The notes beneath the pieces are model-generated. The model was given only the letters and a program-made list of their open reading frames with translations, had not been told where the DNA came from and searched no databases. The position numbers and the translations under genes are program-made. From positions 771,515 to 835,514 of the forward strand of contig NZ_HG726020.1 in NCBI RefSeq assembly GCF_000499785.1: a stretch of DNA of 64,000 bases, read 5' to 3'. Within the stretch, counting starts at the first letter, position 1; every line of letters starts with the position of its first letter. This DNA is from Bacteroides neonati (GTDB taxonomy: Bacteria > Bacteroidota > Bacteroidia > Bacteroidales > Bacteroidaceae). Shown piece by piece: positions 16,639 to 51,667 of this stretch.

Positions 16639-18807
16639 CTAGTACAATTTTGTGGTTGAACCCGCTCTATAGTTCCCTACTTGAGTGGCATTGTCTATGA
16701 CACCTATATAGTTTGTCATAGGAGCAGTGCCAGCAAAAGGTCTTTGAGTTTGATTAACATGAATTTCGGCAAAATTATCCGATTGAATTAACATGGATTG
16801 AAGCGGTCGATTCCATCTTTGCTTTAGCACGCCATCATATAAGAGGTCTAACGAATAATCTCCAGTTTGAGTGCATAGAATTGCAAAATTACATGTCAAG
16901 ACTTTACTTTCCGTATCATATTTCATTGCATTGCTGCGAACCTCGGTTGTTACCGCGTTAAATTTAGAATAAACAGATGTCAGAATTGATGTGGTTTGCG
17001 TCATTCGAAGAGTAACTTTTGAAATATCGAACAAAGTTTCATCAACACCCATAAAGGTACAAAAGTCTCCTACATAAACCTGAATCATCGCAGCCGCCCG
17101 TTTTAAACGTATAATTTCATTATTACTACCATTGTTTAACGTATATGAGTACTGTACCATATACGTATTGTAGGGTATGGGCTTATAAAATTCGTTGTCA
17201 CCGTATTTCTCCAGTGTAAGGCAAAATCCGTTAGGCTTATTCTGTAGCCCTATAAGATAAGAGGCAGTTATACTATCAGGATTATAAATAGCAGAAACAA
17301 TTTTAAAATTTGAATCAGCATCATTCTCTTGCTTGTCTTGCTGGAACGAAGGGTATCTCCGGATGTCTGCCGAAAGATTATTTTCAGCTGTACCATATCC
17401 ATATTGCTTCTGTAATGATAAAACGTAATCAAGATTATCGAGTCTGAAAAAATCTTGTTTTAGAACTGCATTAGCAGGTAGTACCAATGAATTTAGCGGA
17501 GTAGTGGGTCGACCCAGTTCTACAGAGTTTAAAGGATTATAAAAATAACTGATATACAAATATTTATTTAAGTGCAACTTGATAAACTGAGTCAAAACGG
17601 CTCCTTTCTCATCAAGTGCATAAAATACCGCATCTCCATTAAACATGGCTCGATCCAGATCAATAAGAATAGGTGCCTTGATCCTGATTACTCTTTGTGA
17701 AGGATTAGCAGAAATAAAGGGTTCTGCACTCCAACCCGGAGGAAGAACGCTACGTATACTGGTAACATTATCACTACTTTGATAAGGAACCTCAATAACC
17801 TGCCCTGCAGAAACATAGTTAATAACGTTATTTTCGTCTGCTATCCCTTGCGAAAGCAACTTAAAATCCACTTTAACAATGGGCACAACAAATGTATCTC
17901 CAAACTTGGTGGTAATGGTAATTTTCGTTCCATCGGAAGATTGCTCAATATTGGTAACAAAACTTTCCGTTCCAGGCTCCCCTTGTGGCCCTTGTGCTCC
18001 TTGTGGCCCTTGCGCTCCTGATTCTCCGTTTTGTCCATCAATCGCATTTGCACGAATCTTTTGTCCATTTACAACCAAAAAAACAGCTTCTTTATCGGGA
18101 TATTTTATAGTCCAATAAAAGTTTTGATCGTCAGGGTTTGATAAATCTTGAGCCGCACTAACAACAGGTATACCACCATCCTTTCCATCGACTCCAACAG
18201 CCTTATAATTTGTTATCTCACCATTGAACATCCAATATCCATCTTTACTGATCTCAATAGTAGGCGTTATTCCATCTCGCCCTGCAACACCGTCCTGTCC
18301 GTTGGTTCCATCTTGTCCTTTGGCCAAAACGCCTGTATCTTTATCACCTATAAACCAGTTGCCATTCTCTCCAATGTGTGGTGAGACACCGTCTTTTCCG
18401 TCTTTTCCTCTCGCCGGAATACCTACATCCGTATTACCTATCACCCAGTTTCCGTTTGCTCCTATACGTGGGGTCAGCCCATCTATTCCGTTTTTTCCAT
18501 TTTTCCCGAAGGGAACATAGAAATCGGTATCTCCTAACGTAACTGTAACACCTATCGTATCGTTACCAGGTAGAATTGTATAGACCAGATTGGAGGCAAT
18601 GGGCTTGTTATTAAGTATTTCATAAAGTTCCTTAAGCTGCTTTATATCCGCATTTATAATAGTGATTCTTTCATTAATACTCTTCAAACTTTCCGCCAAT
18701 ACATATTGACGGCTATATAGTGTACTAACATCTTCTTTATAACAACTTGCCAGGAGCGTACTAACTAAAACAGTACAAGCAAGACATATCCTAATTACTC
18801 GTTTCAT
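16639..18807 (-). CDS. Collagen-like surface lipoprotein
   Basis: A 722-residue lipoprotein (lipobox TLLASC, Cys22). Order: short coiled coil (about 38-64); a beta-type segment; then three modules of about 40 residues (from about 110, 140 and 180) in which P-x-IGxNGNWxIG-type motifs alternate with Gly-x-y runs (GKDGKDG, GQDGTNGQDG, GRDG); a second collagen-like run at about 258-279; and a large non-repetitive C-terminal region of about 440 residues. The N-terminal plan resembles the DUF4988/PL29-N type domain of Bacteroides lipoproteins. No catalytic motif is seen. Role inferred: surface adhesin or fibre. It is the second gene after the OmpA/TPR protein; its terminator has been displaced by IS1380. 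Confidence 0.85.
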   Translation of the reverse strand: MKRVIRICLACTVLVSTLLASCYKEDVSTLYSRQYVLAESLKSINERITIINADIKQLKELYEILNNKPIASNLVYTILPGNDTIGVTVTLGDTDFYVPFGKNGKNGIDGLTPRIGANGNWVIGNTDVGIPARGKDGKDGVSPHIGENGNWFIGDKDTGVLAKGQDGTNGQDGVAGRDGITPTIEISKDGYWMFNGEITNYKAVGVDGKDGGIPVVSAAQDLSNPDDQNFYWTIKYPDKEAVFLVVNGQKIRANAIDGQNGESGAQGPQGAQGPQGEPGTESFVTNIEQSSDGTKITITTKFGDTFVVPIVKVDFKLLSQGIADENNVINYVSAGQVIEVPYQSSDNVTSIRSVLPPGWSAEPFISANPSQRVIRIKAPILIDLDRAMFNGDAVFYALDEKGAVLTQFIKLHLNKYLYISYFYNPLNSVELGRPTTPLNSLVLPANAVLKQDFFRLDNLDYVLSLQKQYGYGTAENNLSADIRRYPSFQQDKQENDADSNFKIVSAIYNPDSITASYLIGLQNKPNGFCLTLEKYGDNEFYKPIPYNTYMVQYSYTLNNGSNNEIIRLKRAAAMIQVYVGDFCTFMGVDETLFDISKVTLRMTQTTSILTSVYSKFNAVTTEVRSNAMKYDTESKVLTCNFAILCTQTGDYSLDLLYDGVLKQRWNRPLQSMLIQSDNFAEIHVNQTQRPFAGTAPMTNYIGVIDNATQVGNYRAGSTTKLY

Positions 18808-44987: not shown

Positions 44988-45189
44988 TTCAGTATCATTT
45001 TGTCCTTTTAAATAGTAAAAGTATATATTCCCTTTGCACTTGGATGCAACAGCAACTAAAGATTAACACTTATTTGCAATTAAACATATTCACAGTTTCC
45101 GATAAGAGTAAGAAGCGAGCAAAAAAAGAAAACGAGAGCAGTTAATATTTTATTATTTACATAAACGATAAAGTAAACAATTATTATAC

Positions 45190-45239
45190 AATAGATTAAG
45201 AGCCATATACACCTAGGTATATATGGCTCTTAATCTATT
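45190..45239 (-). terminator. 48-bp near-perfect palindrome after tmRNA
   Basis: A 50-base stretch reads the same on both strands apart from one mismatched pair near its centre (core ACCTAGGT). Its arms begin AATAGATTAAGAGCCATATA. It lies 18 bp beyond the tmRNA 3' end and about 200 bp upstream of the sigma gene start. It is a very stable hairpin, but the T-tract is poor on both strands. Probably the tmRNA terminator. Confidence 0.6.
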
Positions 45240-45256
45240 CTTATTATCATCAAAAG

Positions 45257-45655
45257 TGGAGTTGGAGGGAGTCGAACCCTCGTCCAAACGAGGAAATCAC
45301 AAGCTTTCTACATGCTTATCTTTGCCTAAATTTTCGTGCAGAAGCAGAACCAAAGCCATCAACTTCTACCTTATCCTCTTAATTTCATCTTCATCGAAAG
45401 CCCGAGGTAACTTCCAACTATTTCCGATATTACTGCATTACTTAACCAGACCGCTTCGGATCAACAGCATCTGAGTAATGTCCCGTCCCAGTACCTAGTA
45501 CCGGGATTAAGCTAATCTACTATGATTCGATTAAGCAGCAAGAGCAAATTGTCTTTCGCCAGATAAAATTTTGATAACTGAGATTTAAGTGCAAATCACC
45601 GACGCACTGCATGCTTACTCACCATTTCTGCCCGCTGTCAAATCCAGTCAACCCC
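45257..45655 (-). ncRNA. ssrA: Transfer-messenger RNA (tmRNA)
   Basis: A 399-nt one-piece tmRNA. The 5' GGGGTTG pairs with CAACTCC at the 3' end, followed by discriminator A and no encoded CCA. The 3' T-arm has GGGTTCGACTCCC. The 5' part holds the D-loop-like GACTGGATTTGAC. The tag frame, GGC GAA AGA and so on to TAA (complement of 45531-45560), encodes GERQFALAA, ending in the ALAA degron recognised by ClpXP. It rescues ribosomes stalled on mRNAs without stop codons. Confidence 0.95.
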
Positions 45656-45712
45656 AGATTCTTTTCGTGCACAAAGCGATAACTTTTAATTGGTCGAAAC
45701 GCTTTCCTGAGG

Positions 45713-45720
45713 CAAAGATA
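45713..45720 (-). promoter_or_regulatory. Predicted tmRNA promoter element
   Basis: Minus-strand TATCTTTG (complement of CAAAGATA), giving a precursor leader of about 50 nt before the mature 5' end. Confidence 0.6.
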
Positions 45721-45818
45721 CGAAATACTTTCCGATTCGCGATGGTTTATTCAAAATTATTAAGGAAGATGGCCGACCAACTAACCGGCAATGGGCAAGC
45801 GGTTGAAGGGGAAGAAAC

Positions 45819-45926
45819 CTGAACAGTGAGCGATAAAGGCCTGAACAACGATCGAGAGAAGCCTCAAGAAAAAGTGAAAGAAGCCGGGAAGAAGTGAAAG
45901 AAGCCGGGAAGAAGTGTTTTTCATGC
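45819..45926. repeat. Array 1 of degenerate 22-bp repeats
   Basis: Five adjacent units at 45819-45840, 45841-45862, 45863-45884, 45885-45904 (20 bp) and 45905-45926. Units start CTGAACA, CTGAACA, CTCAAGA, CGGGAAG, CGGGAAG and mostly end in AAGC or GGC; GAAGTGAAAGAAGC is shared by units 3 and 4. No spacers, and a period not divisible by three. Located in the tmRNA-GH3 intergenic region. Confidence 0.75.
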
Positions 45927-45943
45927 CGTCATAGTACTATTTA

Positions 45944-46059
45944 GGTACGGAGATAATTGCCTCCCCACCTTGGTGGGGAGACATTCTCACCAAGGTAGGG
46001 AAGATTACCCACCCGGGTGGGGAGATATTCTCACCCGGGTGAGAAGCTGATTATCTCGA
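45944..46059. repeat. Array 2 of 22-bp repeats, each with dyad symmetry
   Basis: Four exact 22-bp steps at 45972, 45994, 46016 and 46038, each starting GGT(G/A), preceded by a longer partial unit from 45944. Units 1 and 3 share GGTGGGGAGA(C/T)ATTCTCACC, itself an inverted repeat. The dinucleotide between units is AA or CG and changes together with the opposite arm (CCTTGG versus CCCGGG), so pairing is preserved. Confidence 0.75.
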
Positions 46060-46090
46060 TAGTAAAAACGGATGTAGATACGGGAATAAA

Positions 46091-46200
46091 CGATGAGCGC
46101 CACCGACTCGACAGAGAAAAGAGTACAGCATACTGAAAAAGAGCGTACAACATACCCCAAAAGGACGTATGCCGCACCGAAAAAGAGCATCGCCCACAAA
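46091..46200. repeat. Array 3 of degenerate 22-bp repeats
   Basis: Units at 46113-46134, 46135-46156, 46157-46178 and 46179-46200, with a weaker one at 46091-46112. Common pattern: A-rich start (GAAAAAGAGC), then GTAC-like and CATACC/GCACC motifs. Different sequence from arrays 1 and 2, but the same period. Minus-strand short frames here are by-products of the repeats. Confidence 0.7.
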
Positions 46201-46256
46201 GCCACCCCCGAAGTATTTTATGCAACAAAGAAACACATTTTTTCGGAAAGAAGCAC

Positions 46257-46264
46257 TATCTTTA
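46257..46264 (+). promoter_or_regulatory. Predicted -7 element of the GH3 operon
   Basis: TATCTTTA matches seven of eight consensus bases, 38 bp before the GH3 ATG, with a TTTTTT tract about 15-20 bp upstream as a possible -33 element. Confidence 0.45.
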
Positions 46265-46302
46265 TGCACTGATACGTTGAATCATAACAGACCTGAATAA
46301 TC

Positions 46303-49155
46303 ATGAACAAACTTCTCCTCACCACCCTGCTACTGGGAGGCAGCACGCTGCTCCCGATGCACAGTTCCTTACTACAAGCGCAGAAGCTGCCGGCCACCTA
46401 TCGTCCCGCCAAAACCGAAATGTACCGAAAGGGATGGATAGACTTCAACAAAAACGGCATCAAAGATATTTACGAAGACCCTACAGCTACCGTAGATGCA
46501 CGCATCGAAGACCTCTTGGGACAGATGAACATGAACGAGAAAACCTGCCAGATGGTTACTCTCTACGGCTACAAGCGGGTGCTGAAGGATGCGTTGCCCA
46601 CCCCCGAATGGAAGCAACAACTCTGGAAAGACGGCATGGGAGCGATTGACGAACACCTGAACGGTTTTCAGCAATGGGGACTGCCACCTTCGGACAACGA
46701 AAACGTATGGCCGGCCTCACGCCACGCGTGGGCACTGAACGAGGTGCAACGCTTCTTTGTCGAAGAAACACGGCTGGGCATCCCGACCGACTTTACCAAC
46801 GAGGGCATCCGCGGCGTGGAGAGTTTCCGCGCCACCAACTTCCCTACCCAACTGGGACTGGGGCATACGTGGAACCGCTCGCTGATTCGCCAAGTAGGAC
46901 GCATCACCGGACGAGAGGCGCGTATGCTCGGCTACACCAACGTCTATGCGCCCATTCTCGACGTAGGGCGCGACCAACGCTGGGGACGCTACGAAGAGGT
47001 GTACGGCGAATCGCCCTATCTCGTAGCCGAACTGGGCATTGAGATGGTGCGCGGATTGCAACACAACCATCAAGTAGCCGCCACCGGCAAGCACTTCATC
47101 GCCTATAGCAATAACAAAGGCGCACGCGAGGGCATGGCACGGGTCGACCCGCAGATGTCGCCCCGCGAGGTGGAGATGATACATGTATATCCCTTCAAGC
47201 GAGTGATACGCGAGGCGGGCATGCTGGGCGTGATGAGCTCGTACAACGATTACGACGGATTTCCCATACAGAGCAGCTACTACTGGCTCACCACGCGGCT
47301 GCGGGGAGAGATGGGCTTCCGAGGCTACGTAGTGTCGGACAGCGATGCCGTGGAGTATCTGTATACCAAACACGGAACAGCCAAAGATATGAAAGAGGCC
47401 GTGCGCCAAAGTGTCGAAGCGGGGCTGAACGTGCGCTGTACCTTCCGCTCGCCCGACTCGTATGTGCTTCCGCTACGCGAACTCATCAACGAGGGAGGAT
47501 TGAGCGAAGCGGTTATCAACGACCGCGTGCGCGACATTCTTCGGGTGAAGTTCCTTGTCGGACTGTTCGATGCCCCGTATCAGACGGATTTGAAGGGGGC
47601 GGATAGCGAAGTCGAGAGCCTCGCCAACCAAGCCGTCGCCCGACAGGCCTCGCTCGAATCGATCGTGCTGCTCAAAAACGATAACAATACCTTGCCACTC
47701 GATGCTTCAACGATTCGTAAGATAGCCGTATGCGGTCCCAATGCCGATGAAACCTCGTATGCACTGACTCACTACGGTCCCTTGGCAGTAGAAGTGATCA
47801 GTGTGCTCGACGGCATCAGAGAGAAACTCAACAACAAAGCCGAGGTGCTCTACACGAAAGGGTGCGAACTGGTCGACGCCAACTGGCCCGAATCGGAACT
47901 GATCGACTTTCCGCTCACACCTGCCGAACAGGAGGAGATAGACAAAGCCGTGCAACAGGCGCAACAGGCCGATGTAGCCGTGGTGGTGCTGGGTGGCGGA
48001 CAGCGCACGTGCGGAGAAAACAAATCGCGCAGCAGCCTCGACCTTCCGGGGCGGCAGCTCAATCTGCTGAAGGCGGTTCGGGCTACCGGAAAGCCGGTGG
48101 TGCTGGTGCTTATCAACGGCCGTCCGCAGTCGATCAACTGGGCCGATCGGTTCGTTCCGGCCATTGTCGAGGCGTGGTATCCGGGATCGAAAGGGGGCGA
48201 GGCAGTGGCCGATGTACTCTTTGGTGACTACAATCCGGGGGGCAAACTAACGGTGACGTTCCCCAAAACGGTGGGACAGATACCATTCAACTTCCCCCAT
48301 AAACCCTCATCGCAGGTCGATGGCGGCAAAACACCCGGAGGCGAAGGCAATATGTCGCGTGCCAACGGAGCCCTCTACCCCTTCGGCTACGGACTGAGCT
48401 ATACGACGTTTGCTTACTCCGACCTGCAACTCTCCTCCTCCACCATCACTCCGCAGCAACAGGCACAGGTGCGTTGCCGCATCACCAACACCGGACACCG
48501 GGCGGGCGACGAGGTGGTGCAGCTCTACCTGCGCGATGTACTGAGCAGTGTAACCACCTACGAAAAGAATCTGGCGGGTTTCGAACGCGTACACCTGCAA
48601 CCGGGCGAGAGCAAGGAGGTATGCTTCACGATTGACCGCAAACACCTCGAACTGCTCAACCTCAACAACGAATGGGTGGTAGAGCCGGGAGCGTTTAAGG
48701 TGATGGTCGGTGCCTCGTCCGAGGACATCCGTCTGAACGGAACACTCACCGTAGCCGACTACGGAACCACCGCTCCGAACAGCCCGACAAAGGCTAACCC
48801 CGTAAGTGCCAGCACGAACGAGGAAGCGGTGAAACAGGTATTCGATACAAATTTGTCGACCGTTTGGCAAGGAAATAAAGGAGATTATATTACTTTTGCT
48901 TTGCAAAGCGGTGCTACCGTAGCCGATGTTTCCATCGCCTTCGGTAGAGAAAACGCACTGCCTGCCGAGTTCGAAATCCAGCTTTCGAGCGGAGGCGGAC
49001 AGTTCCTGACGGTGTATAGCGGACGGGTGACGGAGTATAACAAGCTACTCACCTATCGCTTCAAAGAGACGGCAGCGAGCGATCTTCGCATTGTGCTCGG
49101 AGCCGACCGCGTAGGCATTGCCGAGGTAAAAATAAAACAACTTAAACAAGAATAA
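46303..49155 (+). CDS. Glycoside hydrolase family 3 enzyme, exported
   Basis: A 950-residue enzyme. Signal peptide to about residue 26, GH3 N-terminal barrel with the nucleophile Asp346 in VVSDSDAVEYL, KHFIAYSNNKGAREG substrate motif, GH3 C-terminal sandwich (VVVLGGGQRTCGENKSRSSLDLPG), a fibronectin-III-like domain (about 690-780), and a C-terminal F5/8-type (discoidin-like) region from about 810. Exo-beta-glycosidase (glucosidase or xylosidase type); specificity unknown. Clearly more GC-rich than the PUL. The lactonase gene follows after 4 nt. Confidence 0.94.
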   Translation: MNKLLLTTLLLGGSTLLPMHSSLLQAQKLPATYRPAKTEMYRKGWIDFNKNGIKDIYEDPTATVDARIEDLLGQMNMNEKTCQMVTLYGYKRVLKDALPTPEWKQQLWKDGMGAIDEHLNGFQQWGLPPSDNENVWPASRHAWALNEVQRFFVEETRLGIPTDFTNEGIRGVESFRATNFPTQLGLGHTWNRSLIRQVGRITGREARMLGYTNVYAPILDVGRDQRWGRYEEVYGESPYLVAELGIEMVRGLQHNHQVAATGKHFIAYSNNKGAREGMARVDPQMSPREVEMIHVYPFKRVIREAGMLGVMSSYNDYDGFPIQSSYYWLTTRLRGEMGFRGYVVSDSDAVEYLYTKHGTAKDMKEAVRQSVEAGLNVRCTFRSPDSYVLPLRELINEGGLSEAVINDRVRDILRVKFLVGLFDAPYQTDLKGADSEVESLANQAVARQASLESIVLLKNDNNTLPLDASTIRKIAVCGPNADETSYALTHYGPLAVEVISVLDGIREKLNNKAEVLYTKGCELVDANWPESELIDFPLTPAEQEEIDKAVQQAQQADVAVVVLGGGQRTCGENKSRSSLDLPGRQLNLLKAVRATGKPVVLVLINGRPQSINWADRFVPAIVEAWYPGSKGGEAVADVLFGDYNPGGKLTVTFPKTVGQIPFNFPHKPSSQVDGGKTPGGEGNMSRANGALYPFGYGLSYTTFAYSDLQLSSSTITPQQQAQVRCRITNTGHRAGDEVVQLYLRDVLSSVTTYEKNLAGFERVHLQPGESKEVCFTIDRKHLELLNLNNEWVVEPGAFKVMVGASSEDIRLNGTLTVADYGTTAPNSPTKANPVSASTNEEAVKQVFDTNLSTVWQGNKGDYITFALQSGATVADVSIAFGRENALPAEFEIQLSSGGGQFLTVYSGRVTEYNKLLTYRFKETAASDLRIVLGADRVGIAEVKIKQLKQE

Positions 49156-49159
49156 AGAA

Positions 49160-50275
49160 ATGATTAAACAAGCAATCGGGCTATGTGCCATCGGTATCTT
49201 GTCCGCCGCCTGCTCATCGAAGCCGTCGGCAGGCAAGCAAGAAAACGAACTGTCGATGCTGGTAGGCACGTACACATCGGGCAGCAGCAAAGGTATCTAC
49301 ACCTTTCGTTTCAATGAAGAGACAGGAATCGCCACTCCGCTAAGCGAAGTAGCATTGTCGAACCCCTCCTACCTGACGCTATCGGCCGACGGAAAATTTG
49401 TCTACGCCGTTAGCGAGGAAGACGGTGCCTCCTCGGCCGTCAATGCCTTTGTGTTCGACCAAGAGAAGGGCACATTGCAGCTGCTCAACAGCCAACCCAC
49501 CGAAGGATCGTCGCCCTGCTACGTATCGACCGATGGTAAAAAGGTGCTGACGGCCAACTACGGGGGCGGCAGCATGTCGGTGTTTACCGTACAAAGCAAC
49601 GGATCGTTGGCAAAGATCGATACGTTGTTTTTGGGAGCGGCCACCGGTCCGGATAGCGAGCGGCAAGGTGCGGCACATGTGCATTGCGCTACCTTCTCGC
49701 CAGATGGGAATTACATCTTCGCGACCGACTTCAGTGCCGACCGCCTGTTGCAGTATGCCGTTCATGAGAAAGAGGAGAAGCCACGTCCGCTATCGGCAAC
49801 GGTAGACATCGCTCCCGGTTCGGGACCGCGCCACATCACCTTCAGCCCCAATGGAAAGTTCGCTTACCTGATTAACGAACTGTCGGGCAAGGTGATCGCT
49901 TTCAGCTATGCCGACGGACGATTGAACGAGATTCAAACCATCACGGCCGATACCGTTCGGGCAAAGGGCAGTGCAGATATCCACCTGAGCCCCGACGGGA
50001 AATACCTCTACGCAAGCAATCGCCTGAAAGAAGATGGATTGGCCATTTTCGAGGTGAACAGCGAAACGGGCACGCTGGCCAAGGTGGGCTATCAGCTTAC
50101 GGGTATTCATCCGCGCAACTTCAACATCACGCCCAACGGCAAGTATCTCTTGGTGGCTTGCAGAGACAGCAACGTGATTCAGGTGTTCGAAAGAGATCCG
50201 ATAACCGGATTGCTCACAGATACGAAGCAAGACATTGTGGTCGACAAACCGGTCTGCATACAGTTTGCCGAATAG
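49160..50275 (+). CDS. Lactonase-family lipoprotein (7-bladed propeller)
   Basis: A 371-residue lipoprotein (lipobox SAAC, Cys18). The rest is a seven-bladed beta-propeller with repeats of the type SPDGKYLYASNR, HITFSPNGKFAYLINE and ITPNGKYLLVACRDSN, matching the 6-phosphogluconolactonase-type family (PF10282). Because it is exported, a sugar lactone or another extracellular substrate is more likely than 6-phosphogluconolactone. It is 4 nt after the GH3 gene and surely co-transcribed, so the two may act on the same sugar. Confidence 0.9.
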   Translation: MIKQAIGLCAIGILSAACSSKPSAGKQENELSMLVGTYTSGSSKGIYTFRFNEETGIATPLSEVALSNPSYLTLSADGKFVYAVSEEDGASSAVNAFVFDQEKGTLQLLNSQPTEGSSPCYVSTDGKKVLTANYGGGSMSVFTVQSNGSLAKIDTLFLGAATGPDSERQGAAHVHCATFSPDGNYIFATDFSADRLLQYAVHEKEEKPRPLSATVDIAPGSGPRHITFSPNGKFAYLINELSGKVIAFSYADGRLNEIQTITADTVRAKGSADIHLSPDGKYLYASNRLKEDGLAIFEVNSETGTLAKVGYQLTGIHPRNFNITPNGKYLLVACRDSNVIQVFERDPITGLLTDTKQDIVVDKPVCIQFAE

Positions 50276-50294
50276 TGATTCTACCGGATGCCTC

Positions 50295-50912
50295 TTATTG
50301 GGTGGGTTTCTTAACCAATACAGAGGCACCTTTCTTTACGCACTTCACCGTACCGTTGAGAAGCTTGCCTGCTTTCATATCGAAAATAAGATTGGGGTTG
50401 AAGTGCTGTCCGTTGACACGCGTCTCGAAATGCAGATGCTCGGTAGTGGCGCGTCCCGTACGTCCGGTCAGTCCGATGGGTTGACCGGCTTTTAATTGAT
50501 CTCCTACCTTCACGAAATTAGTAAAGTTATGGCTGTAAATGGTTTCGAGTCCGTTGCCATGACGCACAACGACTACATTGCCGTAGCCTCCGTAGGCTTT
50601 GGACAACCGCACCACCCCATCAAAAGCACAGCGAATGGTATCTTTGGCACAGGTCTTGATATCGACCCCGCTGTGGCTTCGGCGTTGGTGAGTGCCGTAG
50701 CCCGATATCACCTTGGCACCGGGCAACGGGAAGGCATAACCCGCCTTAGCAACAGAGTCGAGGTTCCACACCAGTTTGTTGCCGCTGGCAAAGAGTCCCG
50801 GGGTGGGTACTTTAATATCGATTGTTTCGCGCCCCGTAAAGGTAGGCTTGCTTTGTGCCGCAACTGTAAGCGATACACAGCAAAGGAGAAAGAGAAGGTA
50901 GTAATGTTTCAT
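50295..50912 (-). CDS. M23-family metallopeptidase, exported
   Basis: A 205-residue protein with a signal peptide (cleavage near VAAQ, about residue 20). M23 core: HSGVDI (metal ligands His and Asp) and HLHFE near residue 160, with GYGNVVVVRHGNGLETIYSH between. Zn-dependent endopeptidase of peptidoglycan cross-bridges or a LytM-like activator. All three visible ligands are intact, so an active enzyme is likely. The 89-bp leader region carries a 22-bp repeat array. Confidence 0.9.
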   Translation of the reverse strand: MKHYYLLFLLCCVSLTVAAQSKPTFTGRETIDIKVPTPGLFASGNKLVWNLDSVAKAGYAFPLPGAKVISGYGTHQRRSHSGVDIKTCAKDTIRCAFDGVVRLSKAYGGYGNVVVVRHGNGLETIYSHNFTNFVKVGDQLKAGQPIGLTGRTGRATTEHLHFETRVNGQHFNPNLIFDMKAGKLLNGTVKCVKKGASVLVKKPTQ

Positions 50913-50918
50913 GGTATA

Positions 50919-50984
50919 TTCGTTAAGTGATGGTTTGTGGTTCGTTGAGTGATTGCTTGCCGTTCGTTAAGCGCTTGCTTATAT
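50919..50984. repeat. Array 4: three 22-bp repeats in the M23 leader
   Basis: Units at 50919-50940, 50941-50962 and 50963-50984, each starting TTCGTT(A/G)AG; the last two share GCTTGC. A fourth weak unit overlaps the end of the next gene. Same 22-bp period as the three arrays near 46 kb but unrelated sequence. Confidence 0.78.
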
Positions 50985-51001
50985 GAAGGGGCTGCTTGCC
51001 G

Positions 51002-51667
51002 TTACGGGAAGAAGAGCAGTTCTCCTCCATCCGAACCGGTATAGTTTTTCAGTAAGGTTTGTATCATGTGGGCTGCTTCGGAGAGTCCTTTCTCGCCGCT
51101 ATATCCGTTGACCAACGCGAGAATATGCGAGGTTTCCAGTCCCATCTTCGTGCGCTCGTTGTCGCTGGTGGGTGTACCGATACCGCCCAACGCATCGCGA
51201 TAGACGGGAAGCCCTTCGATATTCAACACTCCCCGCCCGATGCCCTCAAAGGGTTCGGCAGCTCGCCCGATGCCGAGTTCGAGGCTGTTGCCCGTTATCT
51301 TATCAGCATCGAATCCGCCGATGGAATAGCCTGTACGCAACGACACCAAATTAATCAGATCGACCAGCGTATCAATCTGATACAACGGAATACCCCGTAG
51401 CAATCTACGACGCAAGGCTTCGGCCGAAGGGCGATAGCGTCCGGGGTCTTTGCCGCACCGTTTATAAGCTTCGCGCGTAGCAGCAATGGCAGGTTGGTGT
51501 TTTATATCGTCCAGACAAGTAGCAGCAGTCAACTCGGCCGTAAAGGAGTCGATCTCTTGCCACAGTCCGGGGCAGAAAGACGTGTTCTGTACGTGTGCAT
51601 AAACGGCTACTCCGGCAAAACCGGGACAAGCCTGTTTGATCTCTTCCGAAAGGGTAATGGTAAACAT
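51002..51667 (-). CDS. B3/B4 domain protein
   Basis: A 221-residue protein matching the B3/B4 domain of the phenylalanyl-tRNA synthetase beta subunit, with YRPSAEALRRRLLRG and DLINLVSLRTGYSIGGFDAD as family motifs. Free-standing versions are proposed to deacylate or edit mischarged tRNA, but this is unproven here. 3 nt after pgeF on the same strand, so in the obg operon. Confidence 0.87.
   Translation of the reverse strand: MFTITLSEEIKQACPGFAGVAVYAHVQNTSFCPGLWQEIDSFTAELTAATCLDDIKHQPAIAATREAYKRCGKDPGRYRPSAEALRRRLLRGIPLYQIDTLVDLINLVSLRTGYSIGGFDADKITGNSLELGIGRAAEPFEGIGRGVLNIEGLPVYRDALGGIGTPTSDNERTKMGLETSHILALVNGYSGEKGLSEAAHMIQTLLKNYTGSDGGELLFFP

Follow-up and report, generated by a model that had tools for sequence, protein, structure and literature searches.

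Bacteroides has a genus-wide class of short arrays located between genes, each with a fixed 22-bp unit that is usually present four times. The sequence families into which they fall belong to clades, and the period belongs to the whole group. The class is described here starting from Bacteroides neonati, in a window (the whole stretch of 64,000 nucleotides analysed) in which a first-pass annotation had noticed three tandem arrays between the tmRNA gene and a GH3 family gene. One period carried by differing sequences hints at a hitherto unrecognised protein or a copying process that works in 22-base steps. Dozens of unrelated repeat families share a single length within a dominant gut genus, which implies that they have a cause in common. 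Should a protein read this length, it would be an unrecognised chromosome-organising or boundary factor, and if a copying process makes it, it would represent a new route to minisatellites. No report of 22-bp intergenic arrays in Bacteroides was found among the titles and abstract openings listed from open-licence PMC text, which is a weak negative. Changes in unit number could serve strain typing, and the lag-22 scan is simple and applicable to every Bacteroides genome.

The arrays of the tmRNA-GH3 gap

Table 1 Features of the tmRNA-GH3 locus and its surroundings, as positions in the window
Feature	Position	Strand	Description	Basis or context
tmRNA gene	45256..45655	-	left neighbour of the arrays	ARAGORN and Rfam RF00023, 122.9 bits
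Array 1	45807..45916	.	A/G-rich; about three units of 22 bp followed by 20-bp units	TRF
Array 2	45961..46048	.	four palindromic units, 22-bp pitch	member of a dispersed family
Array 3	46114..46201	.	four 22-bp units, AAAAAGAGCGTACAACATACCC type	TRF, lag-22 score
GH3 family gene	46303..49155	+	right neighbour, divergent from tmRNA	ORF; relatives by tblastn
Fourth array	50918..50980	.	about three 22-bp units, TTCGTTAAGTGATTGCTTGCCG	intergenic, TRF

The gap between the two genes measures 647 bp in the window (Table 1); the label GH3 is the name given in the first-pass annotation, which was made from sequence only. Autocorrelation of positions 45720-46300 over lags 1-79 against 500 dinucleotide shuffles bore out the period claimed for this region: the match at lag 22 was 0.406 compared with 0.263 in the shuffles (z 7.6), the highest of all lags and above the highest of the 500 shuffles at that lag, followed by lags 44 (z 4.6), 20 (z 3.8), and 66 (z 3.6). 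Local lag-22 z values were 5.05 for array 1 (from 45807), 7.04 for array 2 (from 45961), and 5.12 for array 3 (from 46114). For these three and the fourth array, none of 400 shuffles of the array's own piece reached its score at any lag from 10 to 60. A chance origin of the period was therefore rejected, as the shuffles score lower for the region and for every single array.

The 22-bp step had been ascribed to all three arrays, and it is present in each, but array 1 ends on 20-bp steps: after its 22-bp units the step switches at 45868-45916, and lag 20 (z 5.16) is slightly above lag 22 in this piece. Array 1 is not palindromic (p 0.92), nor are the units of array 3, a sequence found at only one place in its own genome. 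Array 2 consists of palindromes of the YTCACCYRGGTGRR type with short variable stretches in between, so that the description of the arrays as lacking spacers was not quite right. The window copy of array 2 is flanked by an imperfect inverted repeat, GAGATAAT/ATTATCTC (45950-45957 and 46050-46057). Gaps between palindromes in the arrays are at most 16 bp because the total pitch is 22, compared with at least 20 bp for CRISPR spacers, so that in spacing the arrays do not match a CRISPR array. Whereas the three arrays do share one intergenic region, as first described, the period is not confined to it: the fourth array lies between two minus-strand genes and is unrelated in sequence to arrays 1-3.

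At gathering score, Rfam returned only the tmRNA and one tRNA for positions 45000-51500 of the window and six array loci, and the Bacteroides promoter pattern had no exact match at either promoter of the gap. A phage origin was rejected, as the window region had no match in phages, and so was a plasmid origin, as two tested families had none in plasmids. The tag peptide given by ARAGORN for the tmRNA is unusual (GSYLGLSMKMKLRG), possibly as a result of a misread frame.

The 22-bp lag in the Bacteroides group

Intergenic windows of 66 comparisons were scanned at each lag from 10 to 70 with a threshold of z ≥ 4.5. The group sample, 351,944 bp of intergenic sequence, was taken from the own genome (864 kb including the window), from four further genomes of the genus, and from 35 named loci belonging to Bacteroides, Phocaeicola, Mediterranea, and Caecibacteroides. 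As controls, 136,810 bp of intergenic sequence were used, drawn from nine genomes representing nine other families of the order, from 100 kb of E. coli K-12, and from eight named loci outside the group; these loci include Prevotella and an uncultured Bacteroidales, and some of them may be near the group. Segments with N and locus L141 were left out of the counts. Array cut-offs were z 4.5 or 6, so weak arrays were missed.

Seventy-one arrays were obtained in the group at lag 22, compared with 42 at lag 44, 18 at lag 23, 13 at lag 66, 9 at lag 21, and 7 each at lags 42 and 46; every other lag gave 0-4 (3, 4, 1, and 0 at lags 10, 11, 31, and 32). The controls yielded a single array at lag 22, where about 28 would be expected at the group rate, 6 at lag 21, and 5 at lag 14. 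The lag-22 peak anticipated for intergenic DNA of related genomes was thus found. It is no artefact of a single genome, as 3 to 15 arrays were present in each of the five group genomes sampled as stretches. Each array counts separately among the 71, also where several belong to a single family or orthologous locus; together they form 52 clusters (blastn, E ≤ 0.001), of which 47 are single and the largest have 7, 7, and 6 members, so that the excess does not stem from a few families counted often. The constant period with changing sequence, noticed originally at one locus, accordingly holds genus-wide. In arrays preselected at lag 22, 153 of 156 steps were exactly 22 bp.

Four units are the commonest number (34 of 52 arrays). 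The scan window of 88 bp favours four units, and this was checked with a shorter seed: with a three-unit seed, 28 of 53 arrays had four units and 13 had three, and the shorter window gave 0, 1, 0, 4, 53, 10, 0, 1, and 0 arrays for periods of 18 to 26. Palindromic units occur in 37 of 66 arrays, array 2 included (p ≤ 0.05 against column-shuffled arrays, about 3 being expected), and the remaining 29, including arrays 1 and 3, were not palindromic at this level. Near-perfect adjacent pairs at period 22 were found only inside arrays (24 of 24); there were no isolated 22-bp duplications.

Using gene calls from a simple longest-ORF script, no lag-22 window fell in a called gene in the window or in the nine genomes scanned. 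Three N-free cases occurred among the named loci, two of which fall in a single ORF call of L107 (B. gallinarum) that covers the repeat tract of the tmRNA-GH3 gap. The period had been judged incompatible with coding, and rightly: 22 cannot be divided by 3, and convincing genes are devoid of lag 22, by which coding repeats were ruled out. The arrays tend to sit midway between transcription units. Gaps of at least 150 bp held an array in 15 of 73 convergent, 34 of 295 tandem, and 12 of 131 divergent cases, a weak excess for the convergent ones (15/73 versus 46/426 for the rest, Fisher p 0.03).

Repeat families and their change between relatives

At E ≤ 0.001, 16 matches were obtained in the own genome besides the region itself, every one of them to array 2 or its margins; at this threshold arrays 1 and 3 are without relatives there. 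Array 2 recurs at nine other places in the genome, one of them a short match. Six copies were read closely and showed the four palindromes again, with at most a short common left flank. The notion that sequence is not conserved applies from array to array but not within families. Among 149 genomes of the genus, the array-2 family is present in 4, the own one included, and is weak in two. The ten proteins beside the six copies are ordinary and mixed, two of them being without a Pfam match, and none matched a transposase or Rep family. A third family of the own genome occupies three other places, and one further array tested has none.

Another family consists of four TGTACA cores with 16-bp spacers and is present in 7 of 149 genomes. 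Two genomes each have at least about 40 places occupied by it, with 40 scored of 82 and 83 candidates; the scored candidates comprised 81 and 82 matches, both strands together. In 26 distinct copies, 311 of 312 pair cells of the cores were kept and the spacers varied. The spacers are position-specific, as judged from 30 copies read, and their dyads hold fixed mismatches (C:C in 26/26 and A:C in 23/26 copies). Of the 30 copies, 19 were chosen and aligned for longer common flanks, and several others share the array only; the array-only copies, inspected by eye, had no common terminal inverted repeat or target-site duplication. At L164, L169, and L181 (about 1300-2050), the TGTACA array lies inside a longer dispersed repeat with CCGGAGT..ACTCCGG hairpins. 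This longer repeat carries a GTCTAGCAGTCTAGCA..TGCTAGA motif in two genomes and looks like an element of several hundred bases.

All four cores were intact in three orthologous TGTACA pairs. In two of these the array was 75/76 and 76/76 identical, compared with medians of 62 and 68 for flanking 76-bp windows, of which only 5 of 1004 and 0 of 928 equalled the array. Each of the two pairs shares a third-spacer variant absent from the rest of the 30 copies read; such private variants fit vertical descent. The third pair (70/76, matched by 159 of 1372 flanking windows) is not unusually conserved, and a one-base indel has produced one 23-bp step in it. No clean empty site was found in the few pairs examined: in L129/L133 (92.5%) the place of the array is occupied by other sequence, with no simple gap, and L137/L128 and L101/L121 gave no clean alignment at that place.

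In 13 named loci, ARAGORN reported a tmRNA that lies upstream of GH3. The gap is 155-312 bp long and without a lag-22 array in nine of them, and three hold an array. The gaps with an array measure 772 bp in L135, 582 bp in L137, and about 285 bp in L111, the last as read from the sequence, ARAGORN having misplaced this tmRNA to give 951 bp. The gap of 1010 bp in L106 (B. timonensis) has no 22-bp array and may hold small genes instead. Arrays are also located within about 540 bp upstream of GH3 in L109, L120, and L142. None of the arrays upstream of GH3 in other loci clusters with the three of the window. In the tmRNA-GH3 gap of B. gallinarum (L107, 6024-6690), about six 66-bp units lie beside about eight 22-bp units centred on AACANTTTGTT; the longer unit is three times 22 in length and has no clear internal 22-bp period by eye. 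A difference of exactly 88 bp, or four units, separates B. cellulosilyticus from B. timonensis at another locus, where the two are 97.8% identical over a 13-kb alignment; neighbouring units of the B. cellulosilyticus array are near-identical. Concerted evolution was considered on three arrays only, one L102 unit of which had been typed out of register, and this comparison was set aside. Variable copy number, which had been predicted, is thus seen between two close species at one locus.

Known systems and the origin of the pitch

REP/BIME sequences, which go with RAYT transposases, are palindromic, intergenic, dispersed, and more frequent between convergent genes. The arrays resemble them in being intergenic, partly dispersed, palindromic in 37 of 66 cases, and weakly enriched in convergent gaps; REP/BIME sequences are not known to have a fixed 22-bp pitch over unrelated sequences. 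Identity with the REP/RAYT system was rejected because the own genome has no match to the Y1 transposase (PF01797), which was detected in E. coli and in four others of 14 control genomes. Iterons of plasmid origins and the TnsB sites at Tn7 ends are direct repeats near 22 bp that are bound by an oligomeric protein. They share the repeat length with the arrays described here, which differ in occupying many places per chromosome and, for the six array-2 copies, in having no replication or transposition gene among the ten neighbouring proteins.

The closest known kind is BrickBuilt of Porphyromonas gingivalis, a 23-nt tandem repeat inside an IS5-like MITE (PMC4596501). It occurs in 19 intergenic copies of one sequence family with 1 to 22.8 units, has a leader and a tail with IS5-like inverted ends, and is thought to be moved in trans (PMC4596501). 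The likeness lies in a short tandem unit without long spacers, a strictly intergenic position, dispersal, and the order Bacteroidales. BrickBuilt is, however, a single family with a 23-nt unit, whereas the group studied here has many unrelated families of 22 bp, usually with four units, and 71 arrays at lag 22 versus 18 windows at lag 23. The first-pass statement that no named element behaves in this way was almost right, BrickBuilt being a near relative in kind. The same source mentions 22-nt tandem repeats in P. gingivalis W83, by which the trait may reach beyond the group sampled (PMC4596501).

The best reading, with a probability of roughly 0.4, is that the arrays are clusters of sites at a fixed 22-bp pitch for a putative protein, which change by whole units and have spread in places in a REP- or MITE-like way. 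Each array would be bound by a putative symmetric DNA-binding protein that assembles along the DNA every 22 bp, at about 11 bp per turn in the bound state. Spacing would be kept, and the sequence of the sites would be free to change with the protein or the family. Arrays would grow and shrink by whole units, and a four-unit block may have spread in some lineages as a dispersed element resembling REPs or MITEs. Located between transcription units, the bound complex could serve as a boundary or do no harm. The invariant TGTACA cores at a fixed pitch fit a clustered protein-binding site, and the dispersal seen in some families is consistent with an element of the REP or MITE kind. Also in favour of this reading are the lag-22 excess over the controls, spread over 52 clusters, the exactness of the steps, the mode of four units, the frequent palindromes, the two highly conserved orthologous TGTACA pairs, and the mid-intergenic location. 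Against the site clusters, the genes beside six array-2 copies are ordinary and mixed, the convergent excess is weak, the unrelated sites of most arrays call for many proteins or a sequence-blind one, arrays 1 and 3 are among the 29 of 66 that are not palindromic, and the third TGTACA pair is not unusually conserved.

Selfish elements, either a MITE or minisatellites moved in trans, with the unit serving as a binding site for a transposase or arising as a by-product when DNA is copied, come second and are rather unlikely; they and the site clusters can both be true. Dispersed and clade-restricted families (4/149 and 7/149 genomes), copying of whole arrays with position-specific spacers, the intergenic position, the imperfect inverted repeat around array 2, and the BrickBuilt precedent (PMC4596501) all speak for them. 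A transposase would leave one period over unrelated sequences unexplained, however, and none was found beside the six array-2 copies; the array-only copies read showed no common ends or target-site duplications by eye, the sample contains no relative for 47 of the 71 arrays, and two orthologous copies appear to be under constraint. A single period in unrelated sequences, non-palindromic ones included, speaks for a mutational ruler, an enzyme that nicks or copies DNA in 22-bp steps and amplifies any seed in tandem. The near-identical adjacent units in B. cellulosilyticus, the difference of exactly 88 bp from B. timonensis, and the 66-bp repeat of B. gallinarum agree with this, but it is improbable in view of the confinement of near-perfect pairs to arrays, their absence from convincing genes, and the palindromes and the mode of four, which it leaves unexplained.

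Selection for hairpins formed by RNA or single-stranded DNA, whether REP-like, terminator, or attenuator, is still less probable. Folded as DNA, 8 of 14 arrays reached z -4.6 to -9.5 against shuffles, and some, such as those of L083 and L124, pair end to end. The other six, arrays 1 and 3 included, fold weakly (z 0.86 to -2.1), and this together with the mismatches fixed in the TGTACA spacer dyads disfavours hairpins, as does the want of an Rfam family for the arrays searched. Whole-array symmetry as a general feature was rejected: picking the best centre beforehand gave p 0.0003 against one unit off and 0.09 against half a unit, but with equal pair numbers the centre was no better than one unit off (p 0.25). 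Two turns of B-DNA amount to 21 bp, and helical phasing or intrinsic curvature alone might draw on the nearness of 22 to this value and on lag 42 (four turns), which lies above most lags. It is hardly credible, since spacings of 21, 10-11, and 31-32 bp are not favoured, though equally or better in phase, and lag 44 is far above lag 42 (42 versus 7 arrays). The sharp preference for 22 speaks for a length ruler rather than helical phase alone. When length or helical phase was proposed as the conserved quantity, the constancy of length was correct, and helical phase as the cause was not supported (9, 71, and 18 arrays at lags 21, 22, and 23).

More broadly, it is tentatively proposed that Bacteroides has its own undescribed system, protein or copying machinery, acting on intergenic DNA of any sequence in 22-bp steps. 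Such a system would build or maintain four-unit arrays of which the sequence turns over, with families proper to each clade. A repeat of another kind is found in the window at 17980-18019, where a 9/18-bp repeat of the CCTTGTGGC type lies within a long ORF and is perhaps collagen-like.
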